A stretch of DNA of 64,000 bases from Halichondria panicea (taxonomy: Eukaryota; Porifera; Demospongiae; Suberitida; Halichondriidae). The notes beneath the pieces were generated by a model. It made no database searches and was not told where the DNA came from. It was given only the letters and a program-made list of their open reading frames with translations. The stretch is taken from NCBI RefSeq assembly GCF_963675165.1, contig NC_087382.1, positions 1,302,001 through 1,366,000 on the forward strand, given 5' to 3'. Numbering within the stretch: position 1 is the first letter of the stretch; each line of letters starts with the position of its first letter. The position numbers and the translations under genes are program-made. Of the stretch, positions 4,401 through 54,640 are shown in pieces.

Positions 4401-7400
4401 AGCTTGTATATAGAAAAGTGCCTTTTGCTATCTGTCTGTTAAGTCTGTACTGTAAAATGTGTTAGTATATAATTATAACAATTGTATTTTGTGATAGCAG
4501 AACCAATTAAATGCAGGGGAAGGTGAGAATATTTTGTCAGCGAGTGTATTCTATGGCTGGCTGGACTGGGTCAAGCGTCTTGTGAAAACTGTGGACTTCA
4601 ATCCAAAAGGTGAAATAACTTATCTCGAGAAATAACGTTTCTTTCTTTCACTCTTGAGCTATTTCTATACAGGCTAGTCTAAACTGAGAGAGATAGCTAT
4701 TGTATTGAGATAGTGACAGCTATAGGCTCCTATATAATTATAATTATTATACTTATCTGCAGATATAGGTATATAGTATTGACTTGACCTTGTAACAAAT
4801 TCTTACTGTGTTTATAGCAATAATTATGGGTGAAAGATATTATAATGGCAACAGGGCCGGAGCACAGTGGCATGGGGCTGACGGGGCTAGAGCCCCCCCC
4901 CCCTTTTGTACTCCATCAACTCCAACTTAGCTTTTGAATCACCGTGATCTGTCCATCTCTTCTGCACTGTTGCATACATATATAGTTACTAGAATGACGT
5001 CATGCAATTGATGTGGGAAAGGCCATCTATAATGCGCATGCTGACTGCTGAGGAAAAGTGATGACCTTTTTTTAGGCCCCTGAAATTCAGCATCTAGATC
5101 TGCTCTGGGCCTGCTTAACCGATTTGAGCCCTGCCTTTACCAAAATCCTGTCTACACCACTGGAGCAGGGAGCCCTATGAATAACAAAGGAGTTGAACAA
5201 AGCAACGTAATACTCAAGATTCTCATTGAGCATTCACCTCGTGCGTTGAGCTTTATCGCACAGCGGTAAACAGATTATAACCGTAATGGGTATTGATCGA
5301 GAATATAGAAAGCATGCAACGATTAGAAAACAGACAGTGTTTGTTTTCGCCTTCGAAGATCGCGTATAAGTTTCAACTATCAGTAGCCTCAACCATTATC
5401 TCATTATCAGTTAAAGCAGTCCATGAATGTGTATATCTAGTTCGATCTATATAACAGCTCATTTTTGTGTCCACACATGCATGCACATACACACACATGC
5501 ACACATGCACACAAACCTGTTGCAGGCTATAAACATAGTAAACACTGCACGACCATCGTAATTAACACATGCATATACATATCAACACTCTTATAGACCA
5601 GCTCTACTTTTTTTGTTAGCATGAACCTTATACATATACACACTATACTAAGTCTTGTTACTATAGTAGTATATGGTTAGGAGTAACCATACTATTTGAT
5701 ATTCAATAGACAGTGAATATAGAAGTCAATATATATTAATTGAATAGAGTCAGAGTAGACTACCATGGGTCTCTTTTCGTTTCTGTTCCTTCTCAGTGCC
5801 AATATTGACCAAACAATTGTAGAACTAGTAATTCTTGGACTGTATACATGCAGAATACTGAAAGGCTTCTTGTTTTCTCTTAGAAACCTGTCTAAGCATG
5901 CTAGCATCGTTGTCAAGCTGCATGGTTCATAGCTCTCTCCATTCTCTTTCTTAAGAGTGCTAAAAAATAGCTGCAACACTCCATCTAGATTTTCTTTTTC
6001 AATTTTTTAGAGTGGAAGTGGAAAACTTCGGACTACTCTCCATAAAACGGTTCAACCAGGTGCTTGTTGTTCTTGCAGTATATTGAGATTCCTGGTCTTA
6101 TCATTCACCTCAGCAGAGTTGGTTTGTCTTGTTTCTTCACAAAAAGAGTACAATTCGTCTGTCAGAAGGTCATTTAGAGCTAGCTGTCCTCTGCCGACCG
6201 TTGTTAAAGGCCCAGGCTCCTCCATTACACTCAATACATCTCTTGGAAAACGTCTTCTGCTTGCTCTCTGCTTAATGTTGCTACACTCAGCTAGAGGTTT
6301 TTGACTACGCTCATGCGCATTACGGTTTTCATTATATCGCCGTGGTGTTTAATCGAAGCTAATTTTCTGAGGCACTTGACGACGTGCAATTACAGTCCTT
6401 GACAACTGGACTGGATGTAACTAATGATGTAATACGCTTTTAATAGCTGTATAAGAATTGCAGTATAGTAATAATTATTATAGATGATTATGCAATGATT
6501 CACAAGTATCCACTTCGATTGATAATTATAGTCGCGGCTCACTTTAAAGCAGTTCATTGGTATATATTTGCAGGCAATGTTGACAAGGCTGGTGATACTC
6601 CATTTGCTCTGAGCTACAAAGGTGGACATTTGGAGACAATCAAATATCTTGCCCAAGAACATCAGTGTGACCCAAAATGTATGTGCATGTATATACTGCA
6701 TGCAAATCTTTCTAGCACTCACAACTTGCTTGTATTCACAGTTGCAGTGAATGAAACTGGAGACACTCCTCTCTCCATTGAGTGTTCCCGTGGTAACCTG
6801 GAGATGGTCAAGGCTCTCATAAACAAGCATGTTGATCCAAAGAGTAAGTGTCTATCAGTGCACGGCTGTTACTTGTTGATCGATGATGATCTTCTGCAGA
6901 GCCAGTCAACAAGGCTGGTGACACCCCACTCTCTCTGGCCTATAAAGGTGGACACTGGGAAGTGGTTAAATATCTCGCCATCACTCATCACTGTGATACT
7001 AAAAGTAAATCTCATTTATCTGTTGGTTTGTATACTGTAGCTCTTATATAGGTTCTGTACAATTGCATAGCCTGGAGTTATTTAACTGTGGGCATTCTCA
7101 TTTGAACACTTGCCAGCAGAATTTTTGCATTGTGCATATAGCTGGCCATAATAATATCAGAGTTACAATTTTTTATAGGTGAAGGAAAAATATAACTCTC
7201 CTGATCTCAGCTAGCCTCGATTCCAGGCCAGGAAGAGAAAGGCGGCCTGGCGGCCTGGCATACCTTGTATGCATGTGCATGCATGCGCGAAATAATTGAC
7301 ATCATACAAATTGAAAAAACGGACAAAGTTACAATAACCATGTGGTTAGTGGTAAAATGATCATGACCACGATGGCAGCTTTCATGCTGCAGCAATGTTG

Positions 7401-10400
7401 CTTAATTAATTCTTCTAGCTCTGTTTATCAAAGAGGCAGTTCAAGAAGGCCTCCCAGACAGCTAGGAAGAGTGGTGGACCCTTTAATACATTAGTAGATT
7501 TTGAGTGAATAACTTCCCTAGTGTCGAGTTAAAAGTTTTCAGGAGTGATCATTAGCTTCTAGAATGACTTCTTGTCGAACTTAAAAGGTAGCAAAATACG
7601 ACAGCCTAATCAGGGGACCCACATGCAAGAACACATCATGCATCATCGGCGGCCTTTCCTATAACATAATTATGTATATAGCCTTATAGTGTATATAGGA
7701 TATCGTTAAGTAGAGACTTGGCTTGATACAATAAAGGGCATAAAAACTCAGTCATCATTGCATAATACATACCTCTATGTAATGGACTACAACTTCAGAA
7801 TACAAATAGTATTCGTGTTTATATTACTGACAGTATCCATAAATACACAGATTACCACCTTTTTGAGGTAATGTATGCGCATGCGCATACAAGGTATACC
7901 AGGCCGCCTTTCTTTTCGCGGCCTGGAATCGAGGCTAGATCTCAGCCTACATTCGAACCAAATTGTTGACATCAATTAGCTGGGCCACCGGGTAACACGC
8001 TTATGTAGGATTTGTACTGCTGTGTTATGCAATACTGCATCATGAATTACAACTGCAGAATACTGCATTATGAAAATAAAATTATTAACTGCACGTTTGG
8101 TTATGAATACCGTTATCTGGAATCTGATTGGGCTGCACTCCTCAGGCACTATTGACAAATCCTGTCCCCTGGCCACCCGTTGATTTAGCTCCCACAAAAT
8201 GTTCTATGCTTTAATATTCTTTGGAAATTCAAATGATACGTAAAACGTTCCTTCTTTTCCTCAAATTAATCTTCTGTTTTCTGTATAGGTGTGTTCTTAC
8301 TATCAGTAAAACACAATCAAATATCCGGAGTGGAATGTCTACTAAAAGAATGCCACAGTGATCCGAATGTGACCGACAACGAAGGCAAGAAACCTCTCAA
8401 TATGACTAACAACTCTGAGATTATTAAGCTACTCTTGAAACACGGAGCCAAGGCTGCTAATGTCTACAAGGAACACAGCAAACTCATCGGAAAGCTCTCC
8501 TCTGAGCGACCCCCACACCTTCCTCTGTTCGTGCTCATCATCGGTGATGGTGGCGTTGGGAAAAGCACTCTGTTGAAGTCCATTCTGAGCTCAAAAGGGT
8601 TTTGGTCTAAACTACGGAAGGCAAGACCAGTAGATGACGTCGATGCGAGGACAGTTGGGATCATACCGTACGAAATATACACCAAAGAGTTTGGGAGAAT
8701 CATCTACTTTGATTTTGCTGGCCAGAAAGAGTTTTACACCAGCCACTGTGCCATTCTGGAGAATGCTGTTCAAACCTCACCACCTATCATTATCCTCTGT
8801 GCTAAGCTTGTAGAAAGTGAGCAGGCGATTATTGATTCCACATATCGTTGGTTGACCCTCGTCCAAAACCAGTGCACCAATCTGAAAGGCAAAGCACACA
8901 TGATAGTAGTTGGTAGCCATGCTGACCAGGTGAAGGAAATGGGAGAAGATCTACAAGCAAAAGAGAGCATCTTTGCCCCCATTATCAAGCAATTCCCAAA
9001 GTTTGAGTTCACAGAGTTCATTCCAATGGATTGTCGCTTTGCTGATTCGATTGATATGACAAAAGCAAGAAAACAGATTCAGAAAAGCTCCGCTATTCTC
9101 CGCTCTCCAGAAACTATCAGCCTAAATGCTCACACCTTTTACATTTATCTTGCCGAAAGCTTTAAAGACGACCTTGCTTTGTCTTTGAGAAATGTCTACG
9201 AAAGAATTAAGAGCGATCTTAACGAGGGTCTGTCAAAACGCACCCAAGATATTCTTTCTTTCATACCCAGCACTGTCCCTCACCTTGTAGAGATCTGTGA
9301 CCAGCTGCATAAAAAAGGTCTCCTCTTGTTTCTCCGCAATGACAGCTCTCCGGAGAAGTCTTTCTTAGTGATTGACCAAGCAACGCTTCTGTCCAGAGTC
9401 ACTGGGACCGTGTTTGCTCCTAAAAGTTTCCGCCAGCACTGCAAGCTAGCTTCCAGCACTGGAGTAGTGCCTTTGTCGAAATTCAAGAAAGCATTCAATG
9501 GCTACGACATAGAGATGCTGATCGCCTACATGTCTCATTTAGAGTTGTGTTTCGAAATTATTGACAAGCAAGTGTTGCATTTCATTTCGAAGGAGATTGC
9601 TTCTTCCACTGACAGAGATACTTCTGTACCTGAGTCTGACACTCGATACCTCTTCTTTCCAGGGTTGATTCGAATCAACACTCCAGAGCAAGTTTGGAAA
9701 GAAGCTCAAAGCATCAAGTACCTCTTTGGTTGGGTACTCGAAACTTCTCAGAACACGGAGTTTTTTGATTCACGCTGCCTTCAGGTCCTCATTCTGAGGA
9801 TAGTGTTCATGTTTCGACTTGCCCCTGCAAGCAGAGTACTAGATGATATTCCTTCCCTGCAGAGATTCTGCTCTGTGTGGAAGAGTGGGATCTGCTGGTG
9901 CAACGATGATGGGATCACCGCACACCTCGAGCTTGCTGAAAATGGTCAATCTCTTGTTCTCAAATTGCGTTCTGACACAGTTCGACCTGAAGGTCTGATT
10001 CATCGATTTAAAATTATCAGCACAATTCGTGAGACTGTTAAAAGTTTTGGCCGCAATGTGAATGTGATTGAATCGGTCATTGATCCAAATGAAGTTGTCA
10101 AGCATTCTCTGAAAAATCCCTCTGACCTCCCACTGGTCAACATTAAAGATATTGCAGCAGCTGTCTCCTCCAACAGAAACACAATCAAATCAACACAACA
10201 AATTGCCTTTGGCTTCAAGCACCTCTTACAGTTTGAGCCGTACGCTGACCTGGATCAAACCACCATGCAGTGTATCCACAGTGACAAGAATGCCAAGAAA
10301 GATGAGAAAATCTGCGGAGCTTTTATTTCCCTTTTTGCCGGCCAATTTTCCAACCCCGACATTGAAGATCGGGATCAAGTAGCTCGAAACAGTCGCATGT

Positions 10401-13400
10401 ACAGAAGAATTCTGAGCCTTTCTAATGTCAACATTCAGTCGGTCAATCCCAGACAGGAGGTGGTCCAGGCCCTTGAGACGTGGAGGAGTGAGACTGAGGG
10501 AACTTACAGCTGTCTGAAGGAGACTTTCAACAAGTACAGCGTCTTCACTGGGAGAAACCCTCTGGTAACTATAATAGTTTATCAATTAATACATGTCTCT
10601 ATTTCAAATTTCGTCATTAGACATTAAACTCAATATTTGGGGCGAGCGTAGCGAGCCTTAACTTAGTGACGGCGGTAGCTGTATGTATGTAATGGTACGT
10701 TGGTACGGCCTGATAGCCGGTTTTTACACACGCGGTCCTTACCAATTTCGTGTATTCCTCATGTATTCCTATTGTACAACTGGAGGCATAAGAAAAAGTT
10801 GCATAAAATGAATACTGACAACGAACGCAAACAAGAAAGACTTCGAATAAGGAGGGATCGAGAGAGACAAGCAAGAGCCCAAGAAACAGCTGAAGAGAAA
10901 GTAGTCAGGCTAGCCAAACGTAAACAACAAAGCCCTGTTCTTAAAACAGCTTTTCACAAACGTTTATGCTTATATCAGCACCTACAGTACTTTCGTTCCA
11001 TAAGTTCAAACAGGGTCTAACAACATGCATCAAAACACCTGTACTGCTAACACGCTCGCCCCATGACACGTTGTGTCACCAATAGTATTATATACACATA
11101 CAGGACCTCGTATATAGTGGTAATTAATTGTATAACTTGCTTTACTAGTTCCTCTTCCTTTTATGTACATACAGGACTTAGCTGGTGTGGCTCATGATTA
11201 TATTGATCCCTCGACTGTGTTTAGTATCAGTGGTGATGAGCAAATGGTGCGTTGTCCGTATAGCTGTGTACAAACTCTATGGTAAATTGATTCTTTAATT
11301 TGACTTGCTTCTTTGTATAATCAAGAGTATAATTATAATGGAGAGAGAGTATATCGAACGTAGGCATATTGTGCATCAGATGTATATGTGACTTCCTGTA
11401 TTTGTCATTGGCTTGTAATTTGCACACTGACCGATCCAAGCGTGCATGGGTGATTTAATCTACTTTCACCCACACTTGCAAGCGAGTGTGTACTGTACAG
11501 TAATTATTGTTTTCATTCTAGTACAGTGTAGCTTACATTCAAGAGGATCACTGAATTGTGAATTAATAAATATTGTATTACTCTTCACAGGATCACCAGA
11601 TACCCTCTACCCCTACCTTAGGTATGACTTCAGAACTCAATAGTTACTATCAGTATATGCATGACTATTATAATAGCGCTTACATGTAGTGTGTACCAAT
11701 AATATCAATCTTTTGTTCTCATGCAGCGTCAGGTGAACTCCGTATTGATAGAAATCAAAAGTCAACGATTAGAGAACACTATGATACTGTCTCTGTTGCG
11801 AAGACGCCATCATCAGGTTGTGCTGTTTCAACAACTGTAACACTGTTATTCACTGATTACTCTTATATAGATGAGGGGTCCCTGTCATCAGAAAGACTCC
11901 AATACTCAGCAGCTCCAGTCCAGAGATTAGGAGCTACATCAGCTGGTACTAGGAACAGTCAACTCCATAGAAGAGGTAAATTCACTGATGATCAGATAAA
12001 GTAACGTATGTATGTACCGTTATTTTCGTATATGGGGAAATTTTTGTATATTTCGTATTGTATAGAGCATCATACAAATTACAAACTTTTTCTACCCGGA
12101 ATACGTTCACCGTAACTATCCTGAGCTGTAAATACTAAATATTTTATTGGGCATTTCATCCAAAAATTTGCACCAACAAAAATTAACCGTTGTACGGTAT
12201 GTATAATTATAATTATTGTGCCATGTAATACTTTGTTGCCTTGAAGCCATTTGCTGCATGACTCAAGTGAATGTACCAAAGGAAGTCATATATTTCTGTA
12301 TGCCATAATAATTATTATAGTGCATGCAAAACTGACCACAGTGCAATAATAATGTCATAATTATAATTATTGGAACTGCTATTCCTTTGATCTCAGAGGT
12401 CAAAAGGCAACAATGGTTTAAATTGTTCACACCATTAATTACTTACTTAGGTTCTAGTGATTTGTCTGCTCTAAGGAATTACATTGTAGACACTCCAATC
12501 ACTGGACAACTGGAGTACCAAATGAAGTATGGAGATGCTCACATACAGGTAGGTATCATAGCTATAATTACTTCAATGTGCTAAAACTGCATGTCTATAT
12601 ATGAGTTTGCTAAGTCTAAAGGGTCCAAATCATTGCCGACGTGGCACAAATTTGGTGAATATGTGTCCTTGTACCCTAGTCCACTTACATTTTGTTGATT
12701 TGCCCGGATTAGGCTGTCTATTAGTGGGTCTAGTTACTATCGTTTCCGTCATATGCAGGATCCAGGAACTACCAGCCTCCATGAGTTGATGGTCAAGCAT
12801 GGAGTCACTAACGAGCAGTTGGATCGAGAGATTGAACAAGACGACCTTGCTCCAGTAGCTATGCACTTTGATAATGTGGAGCTCTACCTCAACCCACTGA
12901 AGTTGACTGACAATGAAAAAGCTGACGTGAAGAGAGACGCTTTTGTTAGTGGCAATCTAGTGGCAGTGATCAACTGTTTGTCAATCTGGAGGGGTCACGA
13001 AGAACCCAGCAAAGCAACCTTTAGAGCACTGATTAGGATCTTATTGGATCTGAGGAAGGAAGAGCTAGCTACCAGGATTTGTCAGTATTTGGTAAATTGT
13101 TATGTCAGCACGTAAAAATTATTGCACAGTTTTTATGGGCCGCTACATGTATACATGCAGTGTACGTACTGTACTCAGTGTGTTATAGGACGGGATACCG
13201 TACAGGGAGTATAATTTTCGTGCGGTAAAAAAATTAGAAACGCCTACGTTTTTGTGAGAAAAATTTCGTGTAGGCCAGCCTGCCCATAAAAATAACAAAT
13301 ACTTATACCCCACGAATATTACCCGCTATATACGGCAGTGAGGGTCAACAATAATTATATCTGGACTTTAATTGATTCTGATCGTCTTATTCTTCCTTTG

Positions 13401-16400
13401 GTACCTCCAATCCTCTGATATAGAGTAAAATCTTCTGGACAAATGTTTTAATTGACCGGACAATCTTCCTCTGGTGTTATACTGCATGTATCGTTAATGT
13501 TAACATGCACTAGCTCTTCTACTCATGTGGTGTACAGCAGTCAATGATTGTATAGTACATGCCAGGACTGGAGCACTCTTCTGCTCATGTGGTGTACAGC
13601 AGTCAATGATTGTATAGTACATGCCAGGACTGGAGCACTCTTCTGCTCATGTGGTGTACAGCAGTCAATGATTGTATAGTACATGCCAGGACTGGAGCAC
13701 TCTTCTGCTCATGTGGTGTACAGCAGTCAATGATTGTATAGTGCATGCCAGGACTGGAGCACTCTTCTGCTCATGTGGTGTACACCAGTCAATGATTGTA
13801 TAGTGCATGCCAGGACTGGAGCACTCTTCTGCTCATGTGGTGTACAGCAGTCAATGATTGTATAGTGCATGCCAGGACTGGAGCACTCTTCTGCTCATGT
13901 GGTGTACAGCAGTCAATGATTGTATAGTGCATGCCAGGACTGGAGCACTCTTCTGCTCATGTGGTGTACAGCAGTCAATGATTGTATAGTGCATGCCAGG
14001 ACTGGAGCACTCTTCTGCTCATGTGGTGTACAGCAGTCAATGATTGTATAGTGCATGCCAGGACTGGAGCACTCTTCTGCTCATGTGGTGTACAGCAGTC
14101 AATGATTGTATAGTGCATGCCAGGACTGGAGCACTCTTCTGCTCATGTGGTGTACAGCAGTCAATGATTGTATAGTGCATGCCAGGACTGGAGCACTCTT
14201 CTGCTCATGTGGTGTACAGCAGTCAATGATTGTATAGTGCATGCCAGGACTGGAGCACTCTTCTGCTCATGTGGTGTACAGCAATCAATGATTGTATAGT
14301 ACATGCCAGGACTGGAGCACTCTTCTGCTCGTGTGGTGTACAGCAGTCAATGATTGTATAGTGCATGCCAGGACTGGAGCACTCTTCTGCTGGTGTGGTG
14401 TACAGCAGTCAATGATTGTATAGTGCATGCCAGGACTGGAGCACTCTTCTGCTCGTGTGGTGTACAGCAGTCAATGATTGTATAGTGCATGCCAGGACTG
14501 GAGCACTCTTCTGCTCTTGTGGTGTACAGCAGTCAATGATTGTATAGTGCATGCCAGGACTGGAGCACTCTTCTGCTCATGTGGTGTACAGCAGTCAATG
14601 ATTGTATAGTGCATGCCAGGACTGGAGCACTCTTCTGCTCATGTGGTGTACAGCAGTCAATGATTGTATAGTGCATGCCAGGACTGGAGCACTCTTCTGC
14701 TCATGTGGTGTACAGCAGTCAATGATTGTATAGTCTTGCCAGGACTGGAGCACTCTTCTGCTCATGTGGTGTACAGCAGTCAATGATTGTATAGTGCATG
14801 CCAGGACTGGAGCACTCTTCTGCTCATGTGGTGTACAGCAGTCAATGATTGTATAGTCTTGCCAGGACTGGAGCACTCTTCTGCTCATGTGGTGTACAGC
14901 AGTCAATGATTGTATAGTACATGCCAGGACTGGAGCACTCTTCTGCTCATGTGGTGTACAGCAGTCAATGATTGTATAGTACATGCCAGGACTGGAGCAC
15001 TCTTCTACTCATGTGGTGTACAGCAGTCAATGATTGTATAGTACATGCCAGGACTGGAGCACTCTTCTGCTCATGTGGTGTACAGCAGTCAATGATTGTA
15101 TAGTACATGCCAGGACTGGAGCACTCTTCTGCTCATGTGGTGTACAGCAGTCAATGATTGTATAGTCTTGCCAGGACTGGAGCACTCTTCTGCTCATGTG
15201 GTGTACAGCAGTCAATGATTGTATAGTCTTGCCAGGACTGGAGCACTCTTCTGCTCATGTGGTGTACAGCAGTCAATGATTGTATAGTGCATGCCAGGAC
15301 TGGAGCACTCTTCTACTCATGTGGTGTACAGCAGTCAATGATTGTATAGTGCATGCCAGGACTGGAGCACTCTTCTGCTCATGTGGTGTACAGCAGTCAA
15401 TGATTGTATAGTACATGCCAGGACTGGAGCACTCTTCTGCTCATGTGGTGTACAGCAGTCAATGATTGTATAGTACATGCCAGGACTGGAGCACTCTTCT
15501 TTTCATGTGGTGTACACCAGTCAATGATTGTATAGTACATGCCAGGACTGGAGCACTCTTCTGCTCATGTGGTGTACACCAGTCAATGATTGTATAGTAC
15601 ATGCCAGGACTGGAGCACTCTTCTGCTCATGTACAGCAGTCAATGATTGTATAGTGCATGCCAGGACTGGAGCACTCTTCTGCTCATGTAGTGTACAGCA
15701 GTCAATGATTGTATAGTACATGCCAGGACTGGAGCACTCTTCTGCTCATGTGGTGTACAGCAGTCAATGATTGTATAGTACATGCCAGGACTGGAGCACT
15801 CTTCTGCTCATGTGGTGTACAGCAGTCAATGATTGTATAGTCATGCCAGGACTGGAGCACTGCATGAGATTACTTCTCTTCACACAGGCTGATGGTAACG
15901 GTCAAGTTTATACTCAAAGAGCTGATAAATCTGCTGATTTAAAACCACACATCATGTATGAGGGGTCCCTGTCATCAGAAAGTCTCCAACACTCAGCAGA
16001 TCCAGTCCATAGACTAGGAGCTACATCAGCTGATACTGAGGACAGTCAACTTCATACTAGAAGAGGTAAATTCACTGATGATCAGATAAAGTAACGTACG
16101 AATGTACCACAGCAGGTTATTTTCGTATGGGGGAAATTTTTTTGTATTGTATAGAGCATCATACAAAAATTAAAACTACGAAACTAGTTTACCCGGAATA
16201 TGTTTTACCGTAACTATCCTGAGCTAAATATTTTATTGGGCATTTCATACGAACAAAAATTAACCGTTATACAGAGTATATATATTGTGCCATGTAATAC
16301 TCTGTTGCCTTGAAGCCATTTGCTGCATGACTCAAGTGAATGTACCAAAGGAAGTCATATTTCTGTATGCCATGTATACAGAACTGACCACAGTGCAATA

Positions 16401-19400
16401 TGTCATATAATTATTGGCACTGCTATTCCTTTGATCTCTGAGGTCAAAAAGCAACAATTGTTCACGCCATTAATTACTTGCTTAGGTTCTAGTGATTTGT
16501 CTGCTCTAAGGAACATTGTAGACACTGCAATCACTGGACAACTGGAGCACCAAATGAAGTATGGAGATGCTCACATACAGGTACGTATCATAGCTATAAT
16601 TATATACTTCAATGTCTGCTAAAACTGATGTCTATATAAGTTTGCTAAGTCTTAAAGGGTCCAAACCATTTCCTTTATGTGCCACGTGGCAAAAATCGGG
16701 TGATTTAATAATGTGTACCCTTGTACCCTAGTCCACTTAAATGTTGTTGATTTGCCTGGATTGGGCTGTCTGTTAGTGGGTCTAGTTACTATGGTTTCCG
16801 CCATGTGTAGGATCCAGGGACTACCAGCCTCCATGAGTTGATGGTCAAGCAGGGAGTCACTGACGAGCAGTTGGATCAAAAGATTGCTCAAGATGACCTT
16901 ACTCTAGTAGCTATGCACTTTGATAATGTGGAGCTCTACCTCAACCCAATGAAGTTGACTGACAATGAAAAAGCTGGCGTGAAGAGAGACGCTTTTGTTA
17001 GTGGCAATCTAGTGGCAGTGATCAACTGTTTGTCAATCTGGAGGGGTCACGAACCCAGCGAAGCAACCTTCAGAGCACTGATTAGGATCTTATTGGATCT
17101 GAGGAAGGAAGAGATTGCTACCAGGATTTGTCAGTACTTGGTAAATTGTTATGTCAGCACATAAAAATTATTGCACAGTTTTATATAATTATGGGCCGCT
17201 GCATGTATACATGCAGTGTACGTACTGTACTGTGTTATAATTATGATGGGATATACTGTATTATATAGCGGATAATTTTCGTGGGGCAAAAAATTGGTTT
17301 ATCTGGAAAACAGTGATTTTCGTGAGCATAGATTTCGTTAACTTCATTGGATGCGTTACGGTAAGCCACGCCTACATTTTCATGAGGAACATTTTTATGT
17401 AGACCAGCTTGCCCGCAAAAATAACGCCACGAAAATTACCCGCTATATACGGCAGTGAGGGTCAACAATAATTATATCTGGACTTTAATTGGATTCCAAT
17501 TGTCTTATTCTTCCTTTGGTACCTTCAATCCTCTGATATACAGTAAAATCTTCTGGACGCATGTTTTAATTGACCGGACAATCTTCCTCTGGTGTTATAC
17601 TGCATGTATCGTTAATGTTAACATGCACTAGCTCTTCTGCTCATGTAGTGTACGCGCAGTCAATGATTGTATAGTACATGCCAGGACTGGAGCACTCTTC
17701 TGCTCATGTGGTGTACAGCATTCAATGATTGTATAGTACATGCCAGGACTGGAGCACTCTTCTGCTCATGTGGTGTACAGCAGTCAATGATTGTATAGTA
17801 CATGCCAGGACTGGAGCACTCTTCTGCTCATGTGGTGTACAGCAGTCAATGATTGTATAGTCATGCCAGGACTGGAGCACTCTTCTGCTCATGTGGTGTA
17901 CATGCAGTCAATGATTGTATAGTACATGCCAGGACTGGAGCACTCTTCTGCTCATGTGGTGTACAGCAGTCAATGATTGTATAGTACATGCCAGGACTGG
18001 AGCACTCTTCTGCTCATGTGGTGTACACCAGTCAATGATTGTATAGTACATGCCAGGACTGGAGCACTCTTCTGCTCATGTGGTGTACACCAGTCAATGA
18101 TTGTATAGTACATGCCAGGACTGGAGCACTCTTCTGCTCATGTGGTGTACACCAGTCAATGATTGTATAGTACATGCCAGGACTGGAGCACTCTTCTGCT
18201 CATGTGGTGTACAGCAGTCAATGATTGTATAGTCATGCCAGGACTGGAGCACTCTTCTGCTCATGTGGTGTACAGCAGTCAATGATTGTATAGTACATGC
18301 CAGGACTGGAGCACTCTTCTGCTCATGTGGTGTACAGCAGTCAATGATTGTATAGTACATGCCAGGACTGGAGCACTCTTCTGCTCATGTGGTGTACAGC
18401 AGTCAATGATTGTATAGTACATGCCAGGACTGGAGCACTCTTCTGCTCATGTGGTGTACAGCAGTCAAATTGTATAGTCATGCCAGGACTGGAGCACTCT
18501 TCTGCTCATGTGGTGTACAGCAGTCAATGATTGTATAGTACATGCCAGGACTGGAGCACTCTTCTGCTCATGTGGTGTACAGCAGTCAATGATTGTATAG
18601 TACATGCCAGGACTGGAGCACTCTTCTGCTCATGTGGTGTACACCAGTCAATGATTGTATAGTACATGCCAGGACTGGAGCACTCTTCTGCTCATGTGGT
18701 GTACACCAGTCAATGATTGTATAGTACATGCCAGGACTGGAGCACTCTTCTGCTCATGTGGTGTACAGCAGTCAATGATTGTATAGTCATGCCAGGACTG
18801 GAGCACTCTTCTGCTCATGTGGTGTACAGCAGTCAATGATTGTATAGTACATGCCAGGACTGGAGCACTCTTCTGCTCATGTGGTGTACAGCAGTCAATG
18901 ATTGTATAGTACATGCCAGGACTGGAGCACTCTTCTGCTCATGTGGTGTACATGCAGTCAATGATTGTATAGTACATGCCAGGACTGGAGCACTCTTCTG
19001 CTCATGTGGTGTACAGCAGTCAATGATTGTATAGTACATGCCAGGACTGGAGCACTCTTCTGCTCATGTGGTGTACACCAGTCAATGATTGTATAGTACA
19101 TGCCAGGACTGGAGCACTCTTCTGCTCATGTGGTGTACACCAGTCAATGATTGTATAGTACATGCCAGGACTGGAGCACTCTTCTGCTCATGTGGTGTAC
19201 ACCAGTCAATGATTGTATAGTACATGCCAGGACTGGAGCACTCTTCTGCTCATGTGGTGTACAGCAGTCAATGATTGTATAGTCATGCCAGGACTGGAGC
19301 ACTCTTCTGCTCATGTGGTGTACAGCAGTCAATGATTGTATAGTACATGCCAGGACTGGAGCACTCTTCTGCTCATGTGGTGTACAGCAGTCAATGATTG

Positions 19401-22400
19401 TATAGTACATGCCAGGACTGGAGCACTCTTCTGCTCATGTGGTGTACAGCAGTCAATGATTGTATAGTACATGCCAGGACTGGAGCACTCTTCTGCTCAT
19501 GTGGTGTACAGCAGTCAAATTGTATAGTCATGCCAGGACTGGAGCACTCTTCTGCTCATGTGGTGTACAGCAGTCAATGATTGTATAGTACATGCCAGGA
19601 CTGGAGCACTCTTCTGCTCATGTGGTGTACAGCAGTCAATGATTGTATAGTACATGCCAGGACTGGAGCACTCTTCTGCTCATGTGGTGTACACCAGTCA
19701 ATGATTGTATAGTACATGCCAGGACTGGAGCACTCTTCTGCTCATGTGGTGTACACCAGTCAATGATTGTATAGTACATGCCAGGACTGGAGCACTCTTC
19801 TGCTCATGTGGTGTACAGCAGTCAATGATTGTATAGTCATGCCAGGACTGGAGCACTCTTCTGCTCATGTGGTGTACAGCAGTCAATGATTGTATAGTAC
19901 ATGCCAGGACTGGAGCACTCTTCTGCTCATGTGGTGTACAGCAGTCAATGATTGTATAGTACATGCCAGGACTGGAGCACTCTTCTGCTCATGTGGTGTA
20001 CAGCAGTCAATGATTGTATAGTACATGCCAGGACTGGAGCACTCTTCTGCTCATGTGGTGTACACCAGCCAATGATTGTATAGTACATGCCAGGACTGGA
20101 GCACTCTTCTGCTCATGTGGTGTACAGCAGTCAATGATTGTATAGTCATGCCAGGACTGGAGCACTCTTCTGCTCATGTGGTGTACAGCAGTCAATGATT
20201 GTATAGTCATGCCAGGACTGGAGCACTCTTCTGCTCATGTGGTGTACAGCAGTCAATGATTGTATAGTGCATGCCAGGACTGGAGCACTCTTCTACTCAT
20301 GTGGTGTACAGCAGTCAATGATTGTATAGTACATGCCAGGACTGGAGCACTCTTCTGCTCATGTGGTGTACAGCAGTCAATGATTGTATAGTCATGCCAG
20401 GACTGGAGCACTCTTCTGCTCATGTGGTGTACAGCAGTCAATGATTGTATAGTCATGCCAGGACTGGAGCACTCTTCTGCTCATGTGGTGTACACCAGTC
20501 AATGATTGTATAGTACATGCCAGGACTGGAGCACTCTTCTGCTCATGTGGTGTACAGCAGTCAATGATTGTATAGTCATGCCAGGACTGGAGCACTCTTC
20601 TGCTCATGTGGTGTACACCAGTCAATGATTGTATAGTACATGCCAGGACTGGAGCACTCTTCTGCTCATGTGGTGTACAGCAGTCAATGATTGTATAGTA
20701 CATGCCAGGACTGGAGCACTCTTCTGCTCATGTGGTGTACAGCAGTCAATGATTGTATAGTACATGCCAGGACTGGAGCACTCTTCTGCTCATGTGGTGT
20801 ACAGCATGCAGTCAATGATTGTATAGTACATGCCAGGACTGGAGCACTCTTCTGCTCATGTGGTGTACAGCATGCAGTCAATGATTGTATAGTCATGCCA
20901 GGACTGGAGCACTCTTCTGCTCATGTGGTGTACAGCAGTCAATGATTGTATAGTCATGCCAGGACTGGAGCACTCTTCTGCTCATGTGGTGTACAGCAGT
21001 CAATGATTGTATAGTACATGCCAGGACTGGAGCACTCTTCTGCTCATGTGGTGTACACCAGTCAATGATTGTATAGTCATGCCAGGACTGGAGCACTCTT
21101 CTGCTCATGTGGTGTACAGCAGTCAATGATTGTATAGTGCATGCCAGGACTGGAGCACTCTTCTGCTCATGTGGTGTACACCAGTCAATGATTGTATAGT
21201 ACATGCCAGGACTGGAGCACTCTTCTGCTCATGTACAGCAGTCAATGATTGTATAGTGCATGCCAGGACTGGAGCACTCTTCTGCTCATGTACAGCAGTC
21301 AATGATTGTATAGTCATGCCAGGACTGGAGCACTCTTCTGCTCATGTGGTGTACACCAGTCAATGATTGTATAGTACATGCCAGGACTGGAGCACTCTTC
21401 TGCTCATGTGGTGTACAGCAGTCAATGATTGTATAGTACATGCCAGGACTGGAGCACTCTTCTGCTCATGTGGTGTACACCAGTCAATGATTGTATAGTC
21501 ATGCCAGGACTGGAGCACTCTTCTGCTCATGTGGTGTACAGCAGTCAATGATTGTATAGTACATGCCAGGACTGGAGCACTCTTCTGCTCATGTAGTGTA
21601 CAGCAGTCAATGATTGTATAGTACATGCCAGGACTGGAGCACTCTTCTGCTCATGTGGTGTACAGCAGTCAATGATTGTATAGTACATGCCAGGACTGGA
21701 GCACTCTTCTGCTCATGTGGTGTACAGCAGTCAATGATTGTATAGTACATGCCAGGACTGGAGCACTCTTCTGCTCATGTGGTGTACAGCAGTCAATGAT
21801 TGTATAGTACATGCCAGGACTGGAGCACTCTTCTTTTCATGTGGTGTACACCAGTCAATGATTGTATAGTACATGCCAGGACTGGAGCACTCTTCTGCTC
21901 ATGTGGTGTACACCAGTCAATGATTGTATAGTACATGCCAGGACTGGAGCACTCTTCTGCTCATGTACAGCAGTCAATGATTGTATAGTGCATGCCAGGA
22001 CTGGAGCACTCTTCTGCTCATGTAGTGTACAGCAGTCAATGATTGTATAGTACATGCCAGGACTGGAGCACTCTTCTGCTCATGTGGTGTACAGCAGTCA
22101 ATGATTGTATAGTACATGCCAGGACTGGAGCACTCTTCTGCTCATGTGGTGTACAGCAGTCAATGATTGTATAGTCATGCCAGGACTGGAGCACTGCATG
22201 AGATTACTTCTCTTCACACAGGCTGATGGTAACGGTCAAGTTTATACTCAAAGAGCTGATAAATCTGCTGATTTAAAACCACACATCATGTATGAGGGGT
22301 CCCTGTCATCAGAAAGTCTCCAACACTCAGCAGATCCAGTCCATAGACTAGGAGCTACATCAGCTGATACTGAGGACAGTCAACTTCATACTAGAAGAGG

Positions 22401-25400
22401 TAAATTCACTGATGATCAGATAAAGTAACGTACGAATGTACCACAGCAGGTTATTTTCGTATGGGGGAAATTTTTTTGTATTGTATAGAGCATCATACAA
22501 AAATTAAAACTACGAAACTAGTTTACCCGGAATATGTTTTACCGTAACTATCCTGAGCTAAATATTTTATTGGGCATTTCATACGAACAAAAATTAACCG
22601 TTATACAGAGTATATATATTGTGCCATGTAATACTCTGTTGCCTTGAAGCCATTTGCTGCATGACTCAAGTGAATGTACCAAAGGAAGTCATATTTCTGT
22701 ATGCCATGTATACAGAACTGACCACAGTGCAATATGTCATATAATTATTGGCACTGCTATTCCTTTGATCTCTGAGGTCAAAAAGCAACAATTGTTCACG
22801 CCATTAATTACTTGCTTAGGTTCTAGTGATTTGTCTGCTCTAAGGAACATTGTAGACACTGCAATCACTGGACAACTGGAGCACCAAATGAAGTATGGAG
22901 ATGCTCACATACAGGTACGTATCATAGCTATAATTATATACTTCAATGTCTGCTAAAACTGATGTCTATATAAGTTTGCTAAGTCTTAAAGGGTCCAAAC
23001 CATTTCCTTTATGTGCCACGTGGCAAAAATCGGGTGATTTAATAATGTGTACCCTTGTACCCTAGTCCACTTAAATGTTGTTGATTTGCCTGGATTGGGC
23101 TGTCTGTTAGTGGGTCTAGTTACTATGGTTTCCGCCATGTGTAGGATCCAGGGACTACCAGCCTCCATGAGTTGATGGTCAAGCAGGGAGTCACTGACGA
23201 GCAGTTGGATCAAAAGATTGCTCAAGATGACCTTACTCTAGTAGCTATGCACTTTGATAATGTGGAGCTCTACCTCAACCCAATGAAGTTGACTGACAAT
23301 GAAAAAGCTGGCGTGAAGAGAGACGCTTTTGTTAGTGGCAATCTAGTGGCAGTGATCAACTGTTTGTCAATCTGGAGGGGTCACGAACCCAGCGAAGCAA
23401 CCTTCAGAGCACTGATTAGGATCTTATTGGATCTGAGGAAGGAAGAGATTGCTACCAGGATTTGTCAGTACTTGGTAAATTGTTATGTCAGCACATAAAA
23501 ATTATTGCACAGTTTTATATAATTATGGGCCGCTGCATGTATACATGCAGTGTACGTACTGTACTGTGTTATAATTATGATGGGATATACTGTATTATAT
23601 AGCGGATAATTTTCGTGGGGCAAAAAATTGGTTTATCTGGAAAACAGTGATTTTCGTGAGCATAGATTTCGTTAACTTCATTGGATGCGTTACGGTAAGC
23701 CACGCCTACATTTTCATGAGGAACATTTTTATGTAGACCAGCTTGCCCGCAAAAATAACGCCACGAAAATTACCCGCTATATACGGCAGTGAGGGTCAAC
23801 AATAATTATATCTGGACTTTAATTGCATTCCAATTGTCTTATTCTTCCTTTGGTACCTTCAATCCTCTGATATACAGTAAAATCTTCTGGACGCATGTTT
23901 TAATTGACCGGACAATCTTCCTCTGGTGTTATACTGCATGTATCGTTAATGTTAACATGCACTAGCTCTTCTGCTCATGTAGTGTACGCGCAGTCAATGA
24001 TTGTATAGTACATGCCAGGACTGGAGCACTCTTCTGCTCATGTGGTGTACAGCAGTCAATGATTGTATAGTACATGCCAGGACTGGAGCACTCTTCTGCT
24101 CATGTGGTGTACAGCAGTCAATGATTGTATAGTACATGCCAGGACTGGAGCACTCTTCTGCTCATGTGGTGTACACCAGTCAATGATTGTATAGTACATG
24201 CCAGGACTGGAGCACTCTTCTGCTCATGTGGTGTACACCAGTCAATGATTGTATAGTACATGCCAGGACTGGAGCACTCTTCTGCTCATGTGGTGTACAG
24301 CAGTCAATGATTGTATAGTACATGCCAGGACTGGAGCACTCTTCTGCTCATGTGGTGTACAGCATGCAGTCAATGATTGTATAGTCAGTCATGCCAGGAC
24401 TGGAGCACTCTTCTGCTCATGTGGTGTACAGCAGTCAATGATTGTATAGTACATGCCAGGACTGGAGCACTCTTCTGCTCATGTGGTGTACAGCAGTCAA
24501 TGATTGTATAGTCATGCCAGGACTGGAGCACTCTTCTGCTCATGTGGTGTACAGCAGTCAATGATTGTATAGTCATGCCAGGACTGGAGCACTCTTCTGC
24601 TCATGTGGTGTACAGCAGTCAATGATTGTATAGTCATGCCAGGACTGGAGCACTCTTCTGCTCATGTGGTGTACAGCAGTCAATGATTGTATAGTACATG
24701 CCAGGACTGGAGCACTCTTCTGCTCATGTGGTGTACAGCAGTCAATGATTGTATAGTGCATGCCAGGACTGGAGCACTCTTCTGCTCATGTGGTGTACAG
24801 CAGTCAATGATTGTATAGTGCATGCCAGGACTGGAGCACTCTTCTGCTCATGTGGTGTACAGCAGTCAATGATTGTATAGTGCATGCCAGGACTGGAGCA
24901 CTCTTCTGCTCATGTGGTGTACAGCAGTCAATGATTGTATAGTGCATGCCAGGACTGGAGCACTCTTCTGCTCATGTGGTGTACAGCAGTCAATGATTGT
25001 ATAGTGCATGCCAGGACTGGAGCACTCTTCTGCTCATGTGGTGTACAGCAGTCAATGATTGTATAGTGCATGCCAGGACTGGAGCACTCTTCTGCTCATG
25101 TGGTGTACAGCAGTCAATGATTGTATAGTGCATGCCAGGACTGGAGCACTCTTCTGCTCATGTGGTGTACAGCAGTCAATGATTGTATAGTGCATGCCAG
25201 GACTGGAGCACTCTTCTGCTCATGTGGTGTACAGCAGTCAATGATTGTATAGTCATGCCAGGACTGGAGCACTCTTCTGCTCATGTGGTGTACAGCAGTC
25301 AATGATTGTATAGTGCATGCCAGGACTGGAGCACTCTTCTGCTCATGTGGTGTACAGCAGTCAATGATTGTATAGTCATGCCAGGACTGGAGCACTCTTC

Positions 25401-28400
25401 TGCTCATGTGGTGTACAGCAGTCAATGATTGTATAGTGCATGCCAGGACTGGAGCACTCTTCTGCTCATGTGGTGTACAGCAGTCAATGATTGTATAGTG
25501 CATGCCAGGACTGGAGCACTCTTCTGCTCATGTGGTGTACAGCAGTCAATGATTGTATAGTGCATGCCAGGACTGGAGCACTCTTCTGCTCATGTGGTGT
25601 ACAGCAGTCAATGATTGTATAGTGCATGCCAGGACTGGAGCACTCTTCTGCTCATGTTGTGTACAGCAGTCAATGATTGTATAGTCATGCCAGGACTGGA
25701 GCACTCTTCTGCTCATGTGGTGTACAGCAGTCAATGATTGTATAGTGCATGCCAGGACTGGAGCACTCTTCTGCTCATGTGGTGTACAGCAGTCAATGAT
25801 TGTATAGTCATGCCAGGACTGGAGCACTCTTCTGCTCATGTGGTGTACAGCAGTCAATGATTGTATAGTGCATGCCAGGACTGGAGCACTCTTCTGCTCA
25901 TGTGGTGTACAGCAGTCAATGATTGTATAGTGCATGCCAGGACTGGAGCACTCTTCTGCTCATGTGGTGTACAGCAGTCAATGATTGTATAGTGCATGCC
26001 AGGACTGGAGCACTCTTCTGCTCATGTGGTGTACAGCAGTCAATGATTGTATAGTGCATGCCAGGACTGGAGCACTCTTCTGCTCATGTGGTGTACAGCA
26101 GTCAATGATTGTATAGTCATGCCAGGACTGGAGCACTCTTCTGCTCATGTGGTGTACAGCAGTCAATGATTGTATAGTCATGCCAGGACTGGAGCACTCT
26201 TCTGCTCATGTGGTGTACAGCAGTCAATGATTGTATAGTACATGCCAGGACTGGAGCACTCTTCTGCTCATGTAGTGTACAGCAGTCAATGATTGTATAG
26301 TACATGCCAGGACTGGAGCAATTTATTTTGCTTTCATGTGGTGAATACTTTACTAGTATACTACTGCTAATCATGTATATACAGGACCTAGCTGGTGTGG
26401 CTCATCATGATATTGATCCCTCTGTGTTTAGTATCAGGGTAAAATTACAACATTAACCTTAATTAAGCTGTCTGTATACATTGCAATAATCACAGTTCGA
26501 AGTTGAAACTGTGCTGTACTATATCTCTTCACAGACATTGAGAGAAGAGCACCAGATACCTTGTACCTCTACCCCAGGTAAAGACTTCAGATATTTTAAT
26601 ATGACTATCAATAGTTTAATCTTCATACTGTATTGCCAGCAACGAGTATCATCCCCTCATGGATAACGATGCATGCATATGCATGCCTCTAACAACTGAA
26701 GCATGCAGAACTCATAGCTTGTGTGTCTGGCTAGCGGTAGATTGATGTTGTGTAAATATTCATGTCACTAATATCAATGCTCACTTTCTCCATAGGACCA
26801 CCCGCTAATCAAGTCACGCTCCAAGAACTAATAAAACGATACAGTCTGACTGACGAGCAACTCGACAGTGAAATAGAGTACTCTGATACTCCCAAACTGG
26901 CCTTATGTTTCGATAATGTGGAACTTTATTCGAGTGCAATGGAACTAACTTCTGCTGAAGAAGTTGATGTGAGAGAATCGCGTCATGTAGATGGCAATCA
27001 AACAGCCATGATGAAGTGCTTACAAATCTGGAAAGAACATAATCCTTCTCAAGCAACTTACAGAGCTCTACTAGATATCGTACTGGAATTGGGGAAAGGA
27101 GACACAGCTCATCAAATCTGTCAACAATTGACCCAACGTAAGAGATACCGGGCTATCTTGGGTTTTACATAATAATAATCTGAGAACAATGATACATACA
27201 TAAATCTACCAAGCTTCAAAGCAGTGCACCTAACTCATATATGCACATGTGAGACTGATAGAAAAAGATTAAGAGTAAGTAAGAGTTTCTATAGGCTTCT
27301 AGTCATGTTTTCTTGGATTTAATTCGTGGATTTGCAAAATAATGCTTTGTTCTCGAGTTATGCCTAGTTTTGCTTACTTGGAATGCCATTGCAGCCTTTT
27401 CAGAAGAACACGTAGCCAAACTTGTTTACCGAGTGTTGCTACTCTACTTAGTAGTTAGCCCTGCACTAGAATACTAGCTATTGGTATGTAGCTGCAAGAG
27501 TGAGAAGAGAGCTTGAACTTTGGTATCGATCGTTTTTAACAACAATCGTGGTCCTTCATTACCCACTCTTTGAGTTTGCATGCAGCATGCAAATTAAAAA
27601 ATGTTCATCATGTGTATAAAAATTAATAGTAGCTTTATATTATGTAGCTTTGGCATCTCCACCGAGGCATCAGTACCTGCGGTGCTTTCATTTTATTTAA
27701 GCGGGTCAGGTGGCATATACGGCACCGGATGTAATTTTGAAGGGGGAGAGGTTCGGGAAAATAACAAAAATTAGGGCATTTCCACATCCGGTGCACATCC
27801 GGTGCCGTATATAAGCCACCTGATCCATTTGAGCTTGCTCGCTGGCAGAATATCTTATGTACAGGTGACATTGGAGAAGCTGTTGTGGAAGTCACTAACA
27901 AATCTAACGAGTTCAGCAATTTTGGAATTAAAATTACTGTCCTGGAAAATTCGCTACCTAGAGGTATCGATACATGTGTCCTACACATATCCTTTGAGTT
28001 ATCCACTGACTTTGAGATTCCCGCTAACTCTGAACCAGTCAGTTCAATTTATCATGTGAAATGTGAGCCCAAAGTGCAGTTCAAGAAACCTGTCGTCCTG
28101 GAAATACAACACTGTGCGAGTTTAAGCTCTGACCATCAACAAAGGCTTGTTTTTGCTCGAGCAACAGATCAGAGCAAAACGTTTGAGATCCTGGAGGGTG
28201 GTCACTTTCCTATTGGTGAACGCTATGGATCCATCCAGCTTACTCGTTTCAGTCGCCTCGGTGTTTTTATTCGTAAAGTATTTGGCTTTCCAATCGAGAA
28301 AATATACAGTGCATTGCTCTTCAGAAATAACTTGCACTGTGATGTAATTGACACAAAATGTGTGATATGTCAGGATCTAGACACTCATATAAAGGTAGGT

Positions 28401-31400
28401 TTCAATATTTTCCACAACCGGTCAATAATACGCAGTGCATGTTAAGTAACATGATAATGAGTTTTCGTTATTACAGGTAATTAGAGAGGCGTTAGAAAGA
28501 GATGGATTCACAAAAGAAATGGATCTAGATCAAATTCAATTTGAAAATGCAGTAGAGATGGAACTGCATTCAGAGAATCCAGAGCTTTGGACTGTTACTA
28601 GAGTAACATCCACTGTGAGTTATAGTTTGCTACATAGCTAGTATCCACGGTAATGTTAATAATATTATACACACTCTTGGGGAGGACAAAACAATGGGGA
28701 CATGCTGGTGTGACTAATATGCACTTTCCATGTTGTAGCTGTCCAGAGATCGTATTGAAGGATACTCAAGAGTGTTCGATTCTAATAGTCGACGCGGAGT
28801 TATTCCAGCCATCTATTATAGATTTAAGCTGAAGGAAAAAAATATTTCTGAATCAGTAAACTTTCTGCTGACGAAAACCGATTTAGACGAAGAGAGCCAT
28901 CATCTAATTTTACATATTGACTGTAAGTAACCTGAATCTAAATTGTATGCGAAATCTTGTCTTTCCTCTGGGGATGATAGTAGTTTACAGTATCTATATA
29001 TTTTAGATCCCATTTGAGGGTATTTAGCAGGGAACTATGAGCTATAGTACCGGTACTATAGATTGCTCTGGGCTACAAACTACAACATTATACATTGTAT
29101 TGTCATTTACAAGAAGATACACATAAAAATTATTGTAGCTAGATGCATTGTCTAGTAACATATATAGAATGGAAGAGAGAAGCTCTAGAGTATTTTTGGC
29201 TTTATTCGAGAGTAGTAGGAGCCGCTCGTTTCTTGGGTAGTGTGCTGTACTTTTTTGCTGCAAGGTTGCATGGGGGAGGAGCTGGATGTATGGAAGTGCT
29301 GGAATTCTAGCTTTGGCTTCTTCCTTTGGCTTTGTTCAAGAGTAGTATAGGAACCGCTCGTTTGTTGCAAATTCTAGCTTAGGTGTCTTCCTTTCGCTAT
29401 GTGAGAGTAGTACGAGCCAATCGTTTCTTGGAAAGTGTTGTTTGCTACAAAACTGGGGGAGGAGCTGCCGTTTTGTGGGTGGAGCGGTCCAGCACTATAA
29501 TCTGAGGTGGAGGAACAGGGTTAGCCTCGAGACCAGGCCGATTAATCGGCCTGGATTCGAGGCTAGAACAGGGTTGACTTGAATAGAGACCACAGATTTA
29601 GTAGAGACACAGAGATGCCAACTTCAGATACAATTAAAGAAATGATGCAGTTGCTAGGTTGGCTGGTTGTTGCTAAGCTAGTGCATTTCTAGTAGCCAAT
29701 AGGGTTTGGGATCTAAATCTAACATGTTCTAACTATATTATATAACCTAGTACACTGGAATGCACAAACCGGGCCTGATTCATCCTTCGCATGCACAAAC
29801 AGGTCCTGTATAATACAGATGAAAATGACATCATTTTCCCTTTAATATAGGCGTATCTTTGTAGTTTAACAACTCTCCTCTTTTTCCTCAGTACCTCAGA
29901 CTCTGGGGACGAGTGACTCAGCCACACAGAGAGGTCAGTTCGTGTATACAGTGCATGGAGTGTTTGTGTCTGTAGCTATACTCATGTATTCATTGGATCC
30001 TCAAATACGATATTATACAGCTACCTTAATTTGTACAGTAACATAAATTTAAGCCTCTGTCAGGATATTCCTCTATAGTGAGTTATTAGTCAATTATCAA
30101 AGCTAATGACCTTGAAGATCGACCCTCTTGACGTCATGAGCAATAAGTTGCTTATCCTTACATCCTATTTTTCTTGCTCCACAATGACAATGCACGTAGC
30201 CCGCAGGCTGCTATAGTGAGTTAGGTGCATCACTTTGAAGCTATATACTGGGCCTCAGTCTATATTATATGGAGTGAAGCTAACCTTCAGTCATATAGGC
30301 GTGGAACACAGCGGCTTCAAGTAGAATGAGCTGATGTCTCTAACTCACAAATGAAGTCCTTTTATTGCAAGCTGATATTGACAGTTTTGAAAGAATTCTC
30401 CGCATAACACTTTTGTTCAGCACGATGCATGATACTTTCACTAGAAAAACATCTTAGGTTAATTGCATGACATGCAATTGTTGTGTGTATATACTTATAC
30501 ACAATCGTTGATTCTTATGTGTGCATAGGATCAGGGCATCCAAGAAACCTTACAAGACAGTCGTCCTCCATTCCAATTGTTCTGACTGAAGATGATATTC
30601 GTTCAATTTGTGAGAAGCTGAAGAGTGCAAGCAAAGATTGGTTCAATTTGGGACTGGATCTTGGAGTGAAATTTACTGATTTGAAGGATATCGAAGATGA
30701 ATACCGCAGTAATAAGCGCTGCCTAACAGAGATGGTAGGCAAGTGTCTTGAAGTCACTGATCCAGAACATCCGATGACATGGCCTTACATATGTGAATGC
30801 CTGAGGAGTCCTACTGTTGAGCGTAACGATGTAGCCGAGGAGATTGAAGGTAAAGTGCCTAGTAATATACTCTGTAGTTTTAATTATTCCGTTACCACTG
30901 TGATACCTATGAGGAGGATATACACCCATAATTATATCCTATGTTAAACGTGTTCTCCGAGGTGTATGTACCCACGGTAGCCTCGATTCCAGGCCGAGTT
31001 GTTTCTAGCTAGGCCGATAACTAGTATTTTTCAACATTGTTCTATTAAAAAAAATCGGCCTGGGACCGAGGCTAGTAACCACGGTAGCAGAATAGCTGAC
31101 AGTTTGAAACTTCTCATTTGTGCCAATTTTTTTCGTCAAGGTCAGCCTGTTATATATTTTTCCCATCATTATTCTCAATGCGAGAGTATACCTATTTTCC
31201 TACTATACCATATGCACCTTAATGTAAGGTAGCGTAATTCTAGATATTCAAGGCCTATAATTATAGTCCCACAGCTAGGGCACCCTCCCCTAGCAAAAAT
31301 CCAATACACAATGCATGTATACTGCAAAAAGAGTGAGACTATAATTATACCAGATTTTGCAGCCCTAGTTCAGCAACACGTCATGTCCTAGTCAGAACTA

Positions 31401-33865: not shown

Positions 33866-34135
33866 CAGACGAACTCCATGGACCTACATGCACTAACTAC
33901 TCCAACTATTCCTAGTATATAGACGAACTCCATGGACCTACACTAACTACTCCAACTATTCCTAGTATATAGACGAACTCCATGGACCTACACTAACTAC
34001 TCCAACTATTCCTAGTATATAGACGAACTCCATGGACCTACACTAACTACTCCAACTATTCCTAGTATATAGACGAACTCCATGGACCTACACTAACTAC
34101 TCCAACTATTCCTAGTATAGTCGAACTCCATGGAC
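33866..34135. repeat. 50-bp tandem repeat, about five copies
   Basis: The unit starts GACGAACTCCATGGACCTAC and recurs at 33869 (diverged), 33922, 33972, 34022 and 34072, followed by a partial copy. The copies are nearly identical. No coding role is evident. Confidence 0.9.
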
Positions 34136-54411: not shown

Positions 54412-54640
54412 CTTCATGGTGCATGGCCAGTAAAGCACTTGACTCAAGATCGGAAGGTTGAGAGTTCGATAGCGGAAACATTTTCTAATTAATTTTTCTA
54501 AGGAGTATTAGCCTCCGAACATGCATCACATTTCAGGAGTTCACTCAGTTTTTTTCTGAAAAATGAGTAGGTGTCCACCACATCCTGACGGATGGGATGT
54601 AAAGCCGGGGATCTGACTTGATAAGCTTAAAGCTTCCTTC
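54412..54640 (+). mobile_element. tRNA-derived SINE
   Basis: The head (about 54412-54480) looks like a degraded tRNA: TGGCCAGTAAAGCACTTGAC (box A region) and GGTTGAGAGTTCGATAGC (box B region). The body ends with GATGGGATGTAAAGCCGG, a motif found at the 3' part of many invertebrate SINEs. It is not a tRNA gene: the acceptor stem does not pair. It overlaps the 3' end of the minus-strand gene at 54545-55885, which it probably truncated. Confidence 0.65.

Follow-up and report, generated by a model that had tools for sequence, protein, structure and literature searches.

We analysed a 64,000-nt stretch of the genome of the sponge Halichondria panicea (contig NC_087382.1, positions 1,302,001 to 1,366,000; hereafter the window, C6:1302001-1366000), which carries an ankyrin-Roc-death gene with a three-exon death-domain module in near-identical tandem copies, separated by satellite arrays. 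The genome searched comprised 131,455,214 bases in 39 contigs, and coordinates are those of the window unless a contig is named. From left to right, the gene comprises ankyrin exons, an early death-like domain (4002-4328; Pfam Death 16.9 bits, under the cut-off), more ankyrin exons, a Roc exon and linkers, followed by death domain A, modules 2 and 3, and death domain B. An ankyrin exon at 6900-7004 scores over the Pfam Ank cut-off. The large Roc (GTPase) exon, which like the features of the gene to its right lies on the forward strand, spans 8289-10564, ends in a phase-0 donor and holds 758 open codons from 8291 (PF08477 Roc, 29.1 bits; cut-off 27). The gene has in this exon the Roc GTPase domain of ROCO (Roc-COR) proteins; no COR match was among the 15 Pfam families listed for 8291-10564, in a search whose HMMER filters discard weak matches.

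Three linker exons (11175-11246, 11591-11621 and 11727-11816), with fitting phases and homologous exons in paralogues, precede unit 1 (11871-13091), which consists of a linker exon entered in phase 1 (11871-11975), a second exon (12451-12548) and the death-domain A exon (12759-13091) with its phase-0 donor. Module 2 (15888-17140) and module 3 (22222-23474) come next, and then unit 4 (26385-27137), which is entered in phase 0 and ends in the death-domain B exon (exons 26385-26438, 26535-26577 and 26796-27137). A ZU5 exon (27865-28395; PF00791, 28.7 bits, cut-off 21) and an exon encoding a last death-like domain (30531-30850; Pfam Death 16.1 bits, under the cut-off of 22.6) probably belong to the same gene as death domain B, the former being the domain that marks ZU5-UPA-death proteins (ankyrin, PIDD, UNC5). 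Death-type domains are abundant in this genome (at least 148 Pfam rows at E up to 0.001, among the best 150 of 503 candidates scored), and with hundreds of such relatives, one odd gene is less surprising here than it would be elsewhere.

A phase-symmetric death-domain module

Each module consists of three exons of 178, 95 and 330 nt (603 nt in total), at 15888-16065, 16486-16580 and 16811-17140 in module 2 and, displaced by 6,334 positions, at 22222-22399, 22820-22914 and 23145-23474 in module 3. The two translate to one and the same stop-free protein of 201 amino acids; all six acceptors end in AG, all six donors begin with GT, and the phase runs from 0 at entry through 1 and 0 to 0 at exit. 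In copy 1 the equivalent exon, which starts at 11871, has a phase-1 entry. When 16 exons between 8291 and 27137 are spliced in a model, every junction fits and no stop occurs in 1,549 codons; the frame is equally open with module 2 alone or with neither module (Roc exon to fourth death domain). Given this and the 0-0 phases, the cassette is symmetric and, on paper, optional: a multi-exon, phase-symmetric unit in near-identical tandem copies within one gene. An earlier, sequence-only reading of this DNA had proposed such modules of 603 nt with phase 0 at both ends, spliceable in any number, separated by satellite and differing from copy 1 in their entry phase, and in all of these respects our results bear it out, the chaining on paper. 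Its description of the death domains as identical holds for copies 2 and 3; it does not extend to copy 1 (90% protein identity to copy 2 over the death-domain exon) or to the fourth domain (26796-27137; 45%).

The same reading had taken these domains for death domains, which structure prediction supports. Against the Pfam Death family (PF00531), the module scores 16.3 bits and copy 1 15.6 bits, with 23.9 bits for the fourth domain (cut-off 22.6). An AlphaFold model of the module 2 domain, based on an alignment of the four window sequences, reached at best a pLDDT of 76 and a pTM of 0.63 (pLDDT 46-59 for the other four models). Foldseek with this model returned death domains in all of its first 14 rows, each at E > 0.1, and VIA gave Z scores of 9-10 (up to 10.1) against the death domains of TRADD, FADD, RIPK1 and ankyrin, compared with 2.7 for unrelated rows. 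Two points count against this assignment, namely that the best VIA row is the CARD of RIG-I (Z 10.9) and that helical bundles at Z below about 13 may share a mere arrangement. Given the predicted-structure matches and the family relationship with domain B, the module domain very probably adopts the six-helix death fold; placement in the death-fold superfamily is well supported by the models, and placement in a subfamily less so.

Source of the phase-0 entry

To trace the module entry, we compared paralogous loci on contig C5 (L007, L008, L009 and L010) and on contig C8 (L011; C8:2377500-2387000). When the module was used as a genome query, at least 46 matches were listed (best 40 of 489 candidates), two of them full-length and both in the window. 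A query across the junction between unit A and the modules found the exon that opens the modules, here called the ADGN exon, at five genomic places: modules 2 and 3, and three of the C5 loci. In those three loci (L007, L008 and L009), A linkers and an A death domain are followed by the ADGN exon, directly after CTTCTCTTCACACAG, and then by a B death domain, such that the ADGN exon serves there as the B-unit linker and shares its CACACAG acceptor and its frame with the modules. The sequence-only reading had copies 2 and 3 gaining a new 5' piece with a new CACACAG acceptor; both are already present in the three paralogues, and a de novo origin of the acceptor was rejected on the evidence of these five places, three of them on C5. 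No intronless copy spanning the A-to-ADGN junction was found, as the junction query was matched by its ADGN half alone, at the five places. Two further loci, L010 and the window's second gene (52307-53566 for its A unit), carry an A unit and lack the ADGN exon in the stretches examined.

Alignments divide the module 2 linker into two parts. Its first 72 nt match the ADGN exons of the three paralogues at 70, 68 and 64 of 72 positions, compared with 16-21 of 72 for the sequence upstream of three A linkers. Its 3' part matches four A linkers in 70-75 of 83 columns and three B linkers in 62 of 83 or 84. Between the two lies a stretch (15958-15982, forward strand) that is identical in three of the four A linkers compared and over 22 nt in the fourth, and that overlaps identities of 24 and 34 nt with two of the three B linkers. 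On this comparison, copies 2 and 3 are chimaeras, with the entry of a B unit (the ADGN exon), the remainder from the first death-domain unit and a switch within about 25 shared nucleotides. An ADGN match on the 5' side and an A-linker match on the 3' side show that the B entry was acquired by recombination, rather than by growth of an acceptor.

The C8 locus L011 has an A domain, about seven satellite monomers, an exon of another kind (DLAG) and a B domain like that of the window (71% identical), with no module between them. It also retains GAGATTACTTCTCTT, the tail that precedes the ADGN exon at other loci. As a side observation, a further C5 locus (L043; C5:6098600-6102200) has an A death domain and, at a distance of 2 kb, a B death domain whose linker is of a different kind; it has no ADGN exon and fits neither the A-ADGN-B nor the A-DLAG-B layout.

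Satellite arrays and duplication of the module

A tandem-repeat scan showed a single row of 62-bp repeats from 13514 to 26320 that is broken up by the modules into array 1 (13514-15870, intronic), array 2 (17632-22204) and array 3 (23966-26320). In L008 and L009, about one such monomer sits in the intron immediately upstream of the ADGN exon, and in L007 part of one does. Judged from its position in the paralogues, the satellite monomer is intron sequence adjoining the ADGN exon. Among the 51 satellite matches listed genome-wide, 46 lie in the window, three at the C8 locus and two are the C5 monomers, although very common words are omitted in this search and the counts do not prove that the monomer is rare.

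A comparison of copies 2 and 3 over 2,369 positions (15352-17720) showed a single mismatch. Array 2 carries 74 monomer marks, compared with 38 in each of arrays 1 and 3, and its two ends differ in affinity. Over its first 2.5 kb (17642-20141), 577 of its 80-mers are shared only with array 3 and none only with array 1; over the last 484 positions, from 21642, 226 are shared only with array 1 and none only with array 3; between these, the two are mixed. Such an array, which resembles array 3 at its start and array 1 at its end, bears the mark of an unequal crossover between arrays flanking a single module.

Two near-identical segments of 6.3 kb beside long satellites could also be an assembly error, and we weighed whether copy 3 is an artefact of copy 2 brought about by the satellites. 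Near-identity (one mismatch over 2,369 positions) and the long flanking satellites speak for an artefact, and a misjoin by the assembler within the satellite could mimic the recombinant pattern of array 2. Against it, array 2 is longer than either flanking array and, at 478 of its first 2,500 positions, has 80-mers found in neither of them (a finding that also sits poorly with its derivation from the two), and the recombinant pattern is what a real crossover would leave. Taking these together, we regard an artefact as rather unlikely.

Coding signal and exon ends

With five of the seven aligned A units (L008A and L010A were dropped for large gaps), we counted on the module 2 lineage no indels in 531 bp of exon and 10 in 650 bp of intron (Fisher P = 0.003). 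Gaps between copies 1 and 2 comprise three in exons, of 3 nt each, and 18 in introns, six of which are multiples of 3.

Reading through the donors of the death-domain exons leads, after seven codons, to in-frame stops at 13115, 17164 and 23498, which the sequence-only reading had taken as alternative short ends. The stops are where it placed them, and their use as ends has weak evidence: the same distance is found in L008 and L011 as in the three window copies (W1, W2 and W3), the stop lies 12 codons out in L009 and 15 in L007, and a stop within eight codons is expected by chance about one time in three (arithmetic). If each death-domain exon were instead terminal and ended at its nearby stop, the locus would hold alternative 3' ends or separate short genes. 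The shared seven-codon distance suits this explanation; the longer distances in L009 and L007 do not, the ADGN exons would be left without an upstream partner, and 27 of the 39 sequences listed carry a phase-0 GT[A/G] no more than 12 nt from the domain end (related, non-independent sequences counted without a chance control, with module 3 left out as equal to module 2). We consider terminal exons very unlikely, and the donor after the death domain looks, on these counts, like a family trait. Among the 31 relatives L012-L042, 18 have it in phase 0 exactly 9 nt past the domain end, with three that are visibly broken within the domain (L032, L037 and L038) kept in the count.

A reading in which most of 20 of these relatives stop directly behind the death domain, as terminal exons, was tried and set aside: 19 of the 20 have a GT[A/G] no more than 12 nt from the domain end, which in 10 of them is in phase 0.

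A proposed route to a self-chaining module

Our best explanation, which we hold to be probable, is that a cassette of coding exons was tandemly duplicated within an ankyrin-Roc-death gene: a chimaera was formed, a crossover then recently duplicated it, and splicing chains the modules. In a first step, the linker exon of an A unit, entered in phase 1, would have exchanged unequally with its homologue in a C5-type B unit (ADGN, phase-0 entry). The resulting chimaera would combine the entry of B with the death domain of A and be in phase 0 on both sides. The intron carried along would have brought a satellite monomer, later expanded into arrays, and a second, recent unequal crossover between the arrays flanking the chimaera would have duplicated the whole cassette. 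Splicing would then join the A donor to the ADGN acceptor and chain the modules ahead of unit 4, and the predicted product carries a series of one to three A-type death domains before the B domain, by exon inclusion or by allele. Beyond this, the extra death domains may raise the valency of a death-domain assembly that acts below the Roc switch.

Several observations weigh against this explanation. The B unit of the window itself lacks the ADGN exon, and the first exchange is therefore not readable from this locus alone. L011 may be a broken relative and not a clean ancestor-like state, because two frames are needed to read its B domain and the stretch examined shows the A death domain with none of the upstream A linkers. 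Comparison in 120-bp windows showed that the ends of the cassette are closest to L009 (115/120 at the ADGN end and 110-119/120 in four 3' windows from 17240), and that the interior of the module is mosaic: W1 is nearest in some windows, and L007, L008, L009, L010 or L011 in others. With L009-like ends and such an interior, the first event is either old or overlaid by gene conversion, which blurs the history. Copies 1 and 2 are separated by a silent distance of 0.076.

The condition of the gene also bears on whether the modules are used at all. Unique changes on the module 2 lineage comprise 10 replacement and three silent ones, which is close to neutral drift for 414 and 117 sites, and selection on the module 2 protein is hence not demonstrated; the other five sequences pooled have 23 and 18, a difference that is not significant (P = 0.21). 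Module 2 has a dN/dS of 0.72 against copy 1 and of 0.94-1.05 against Wp2, L007A, L009A and L010A, compared with 0.28 to 0.87 for pairs without module 2. In addition, the first ankyrin exon (288-579) lacks 10 bp relative to its paralogue in 41619-42002 and is frameshifted, with an in-frame TAA, such that the gene may be in decay, or this frameshift is possibly an assembly error. These observations would fit modules 2 and 3 as duplicated, unused intronic remains, with the donor at 13091 joining 26385 directly and the frames open because the duplication is young. The frame that stays open without the modules and the C8 locus without any module would fit this also. Two observations speak against it: the module 2 lineage has 10 intron indels and no exon indel or stop, and the splice sites of both modules are all intact. 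We treat unused remains as a serious if somewhat unlikely alternative; as far as substitutions and indels indicate, the reading frame of the module has been kept, with amino acid changes at about the neutral level.

If the proposed duplication is right, the locus shows how a unit unable to repeat (phase 1 in, phase 0 out) was turned into a repeatable one (0-0) by fusion with the linker exon of its neighbor, with the DNA largely revealing the donor exons, the switch point and the two recombination steps. Internal duplication is a known mode of protein growth, and the unusual part is this readable switch from a non-chaining to a chaining unit. A more speculative extension, which we rate as decidedly improbable, is a copy-number polymorphism of death domains, in which satellites would shift the number of a self-chaining cassette between individuals, with alternative splicing on top, and would so vary the valency of a Roc-controlled death or immune scaffold. 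Were the copies both used and variable, they would form a natural protein series with differing numbers of identical death domains, that would open valency in death-domain signalling to direct test.

Other features of the window

A neighboring paralogous gene contains, at 43569-47623, an ankyrin-exon block of about 1.34 kb three times (98.9-99.6% identical), apparently a second recent intragenic tandem duplication. The two paralogous genes also hold mutual inverted copies (7212-7938 and 47973-48730; 72% identity), perhaps a transposon. For the second gene at 51600-53600, raw genomic DNA with stops written as X matched no Pfam family, and a profile comparison with solved structures gave two rows, the better of them a designed PPR protein. 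Long open frames on the minus strand at 54545-55906, 58933-61764 and 62495-63727 have matches to the Pfam Chlam_PMP repeat, two of the three over the cut-off, and perhaps encode beta-helix proteins. A 50-bp minisatellite occupies 33867-34135 (5.3 copies). Intron sequence at about 1390-1620 reads, by eye, like rearranged pieces of a small-subunit rRNA gene; Rfam at gathering thresholds found nothing in the window.

Comparison with known systems

Proteins of the DAPK1 type combine ankyrin repeats, a Roc GTPase and a death domain, and those of the ankyrin/PIDD type combine ZU5 with a death domain. The gene described here shares these domains and differs from both in having several death-type domains in series. 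For tandem death domains, the match found in the literature was an engineered FADD. In the sponge Amphimedon, large families with one to three death-like domains, ankyrin repeats and other domains are reported (PMC8195603); the expansions treated in the available text of that paper are of TRADD-N proteins (TRADD-N was not sought here), and that text describes no such cassette.

Minisatellites in human segmental-duplication gene families are described, in the portion of the source drawn on here, as altering gene structure, possibly via slippage or unequal crossover (PMC2812944). In those human cases the repeat itself alters exons or introns, whereas here the repeat is intronic and whole exons appear to have been copied by way of it. 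The closest kind of system, from excerpts of the relevant papers, is the KIV-2 repeat of LPA, which encodes human apolipoprotein(a) and has 5.5 kb per copy, two exons and from 1 to >40 copies, with gene conversion under discussion (PMC4378929; the repeat is also treated in PMC12776774). Unlike LPA KIV-2, the sponge cassette is known from two identical copies in one assembly, its unit is chimaeric from two linkers, and satellite arrays lie between the units. Like LPA KIV-2, it is a multi-exon domain unit of 5-6 kb, present in near-identical tandem copies in one gene and joined through introns.

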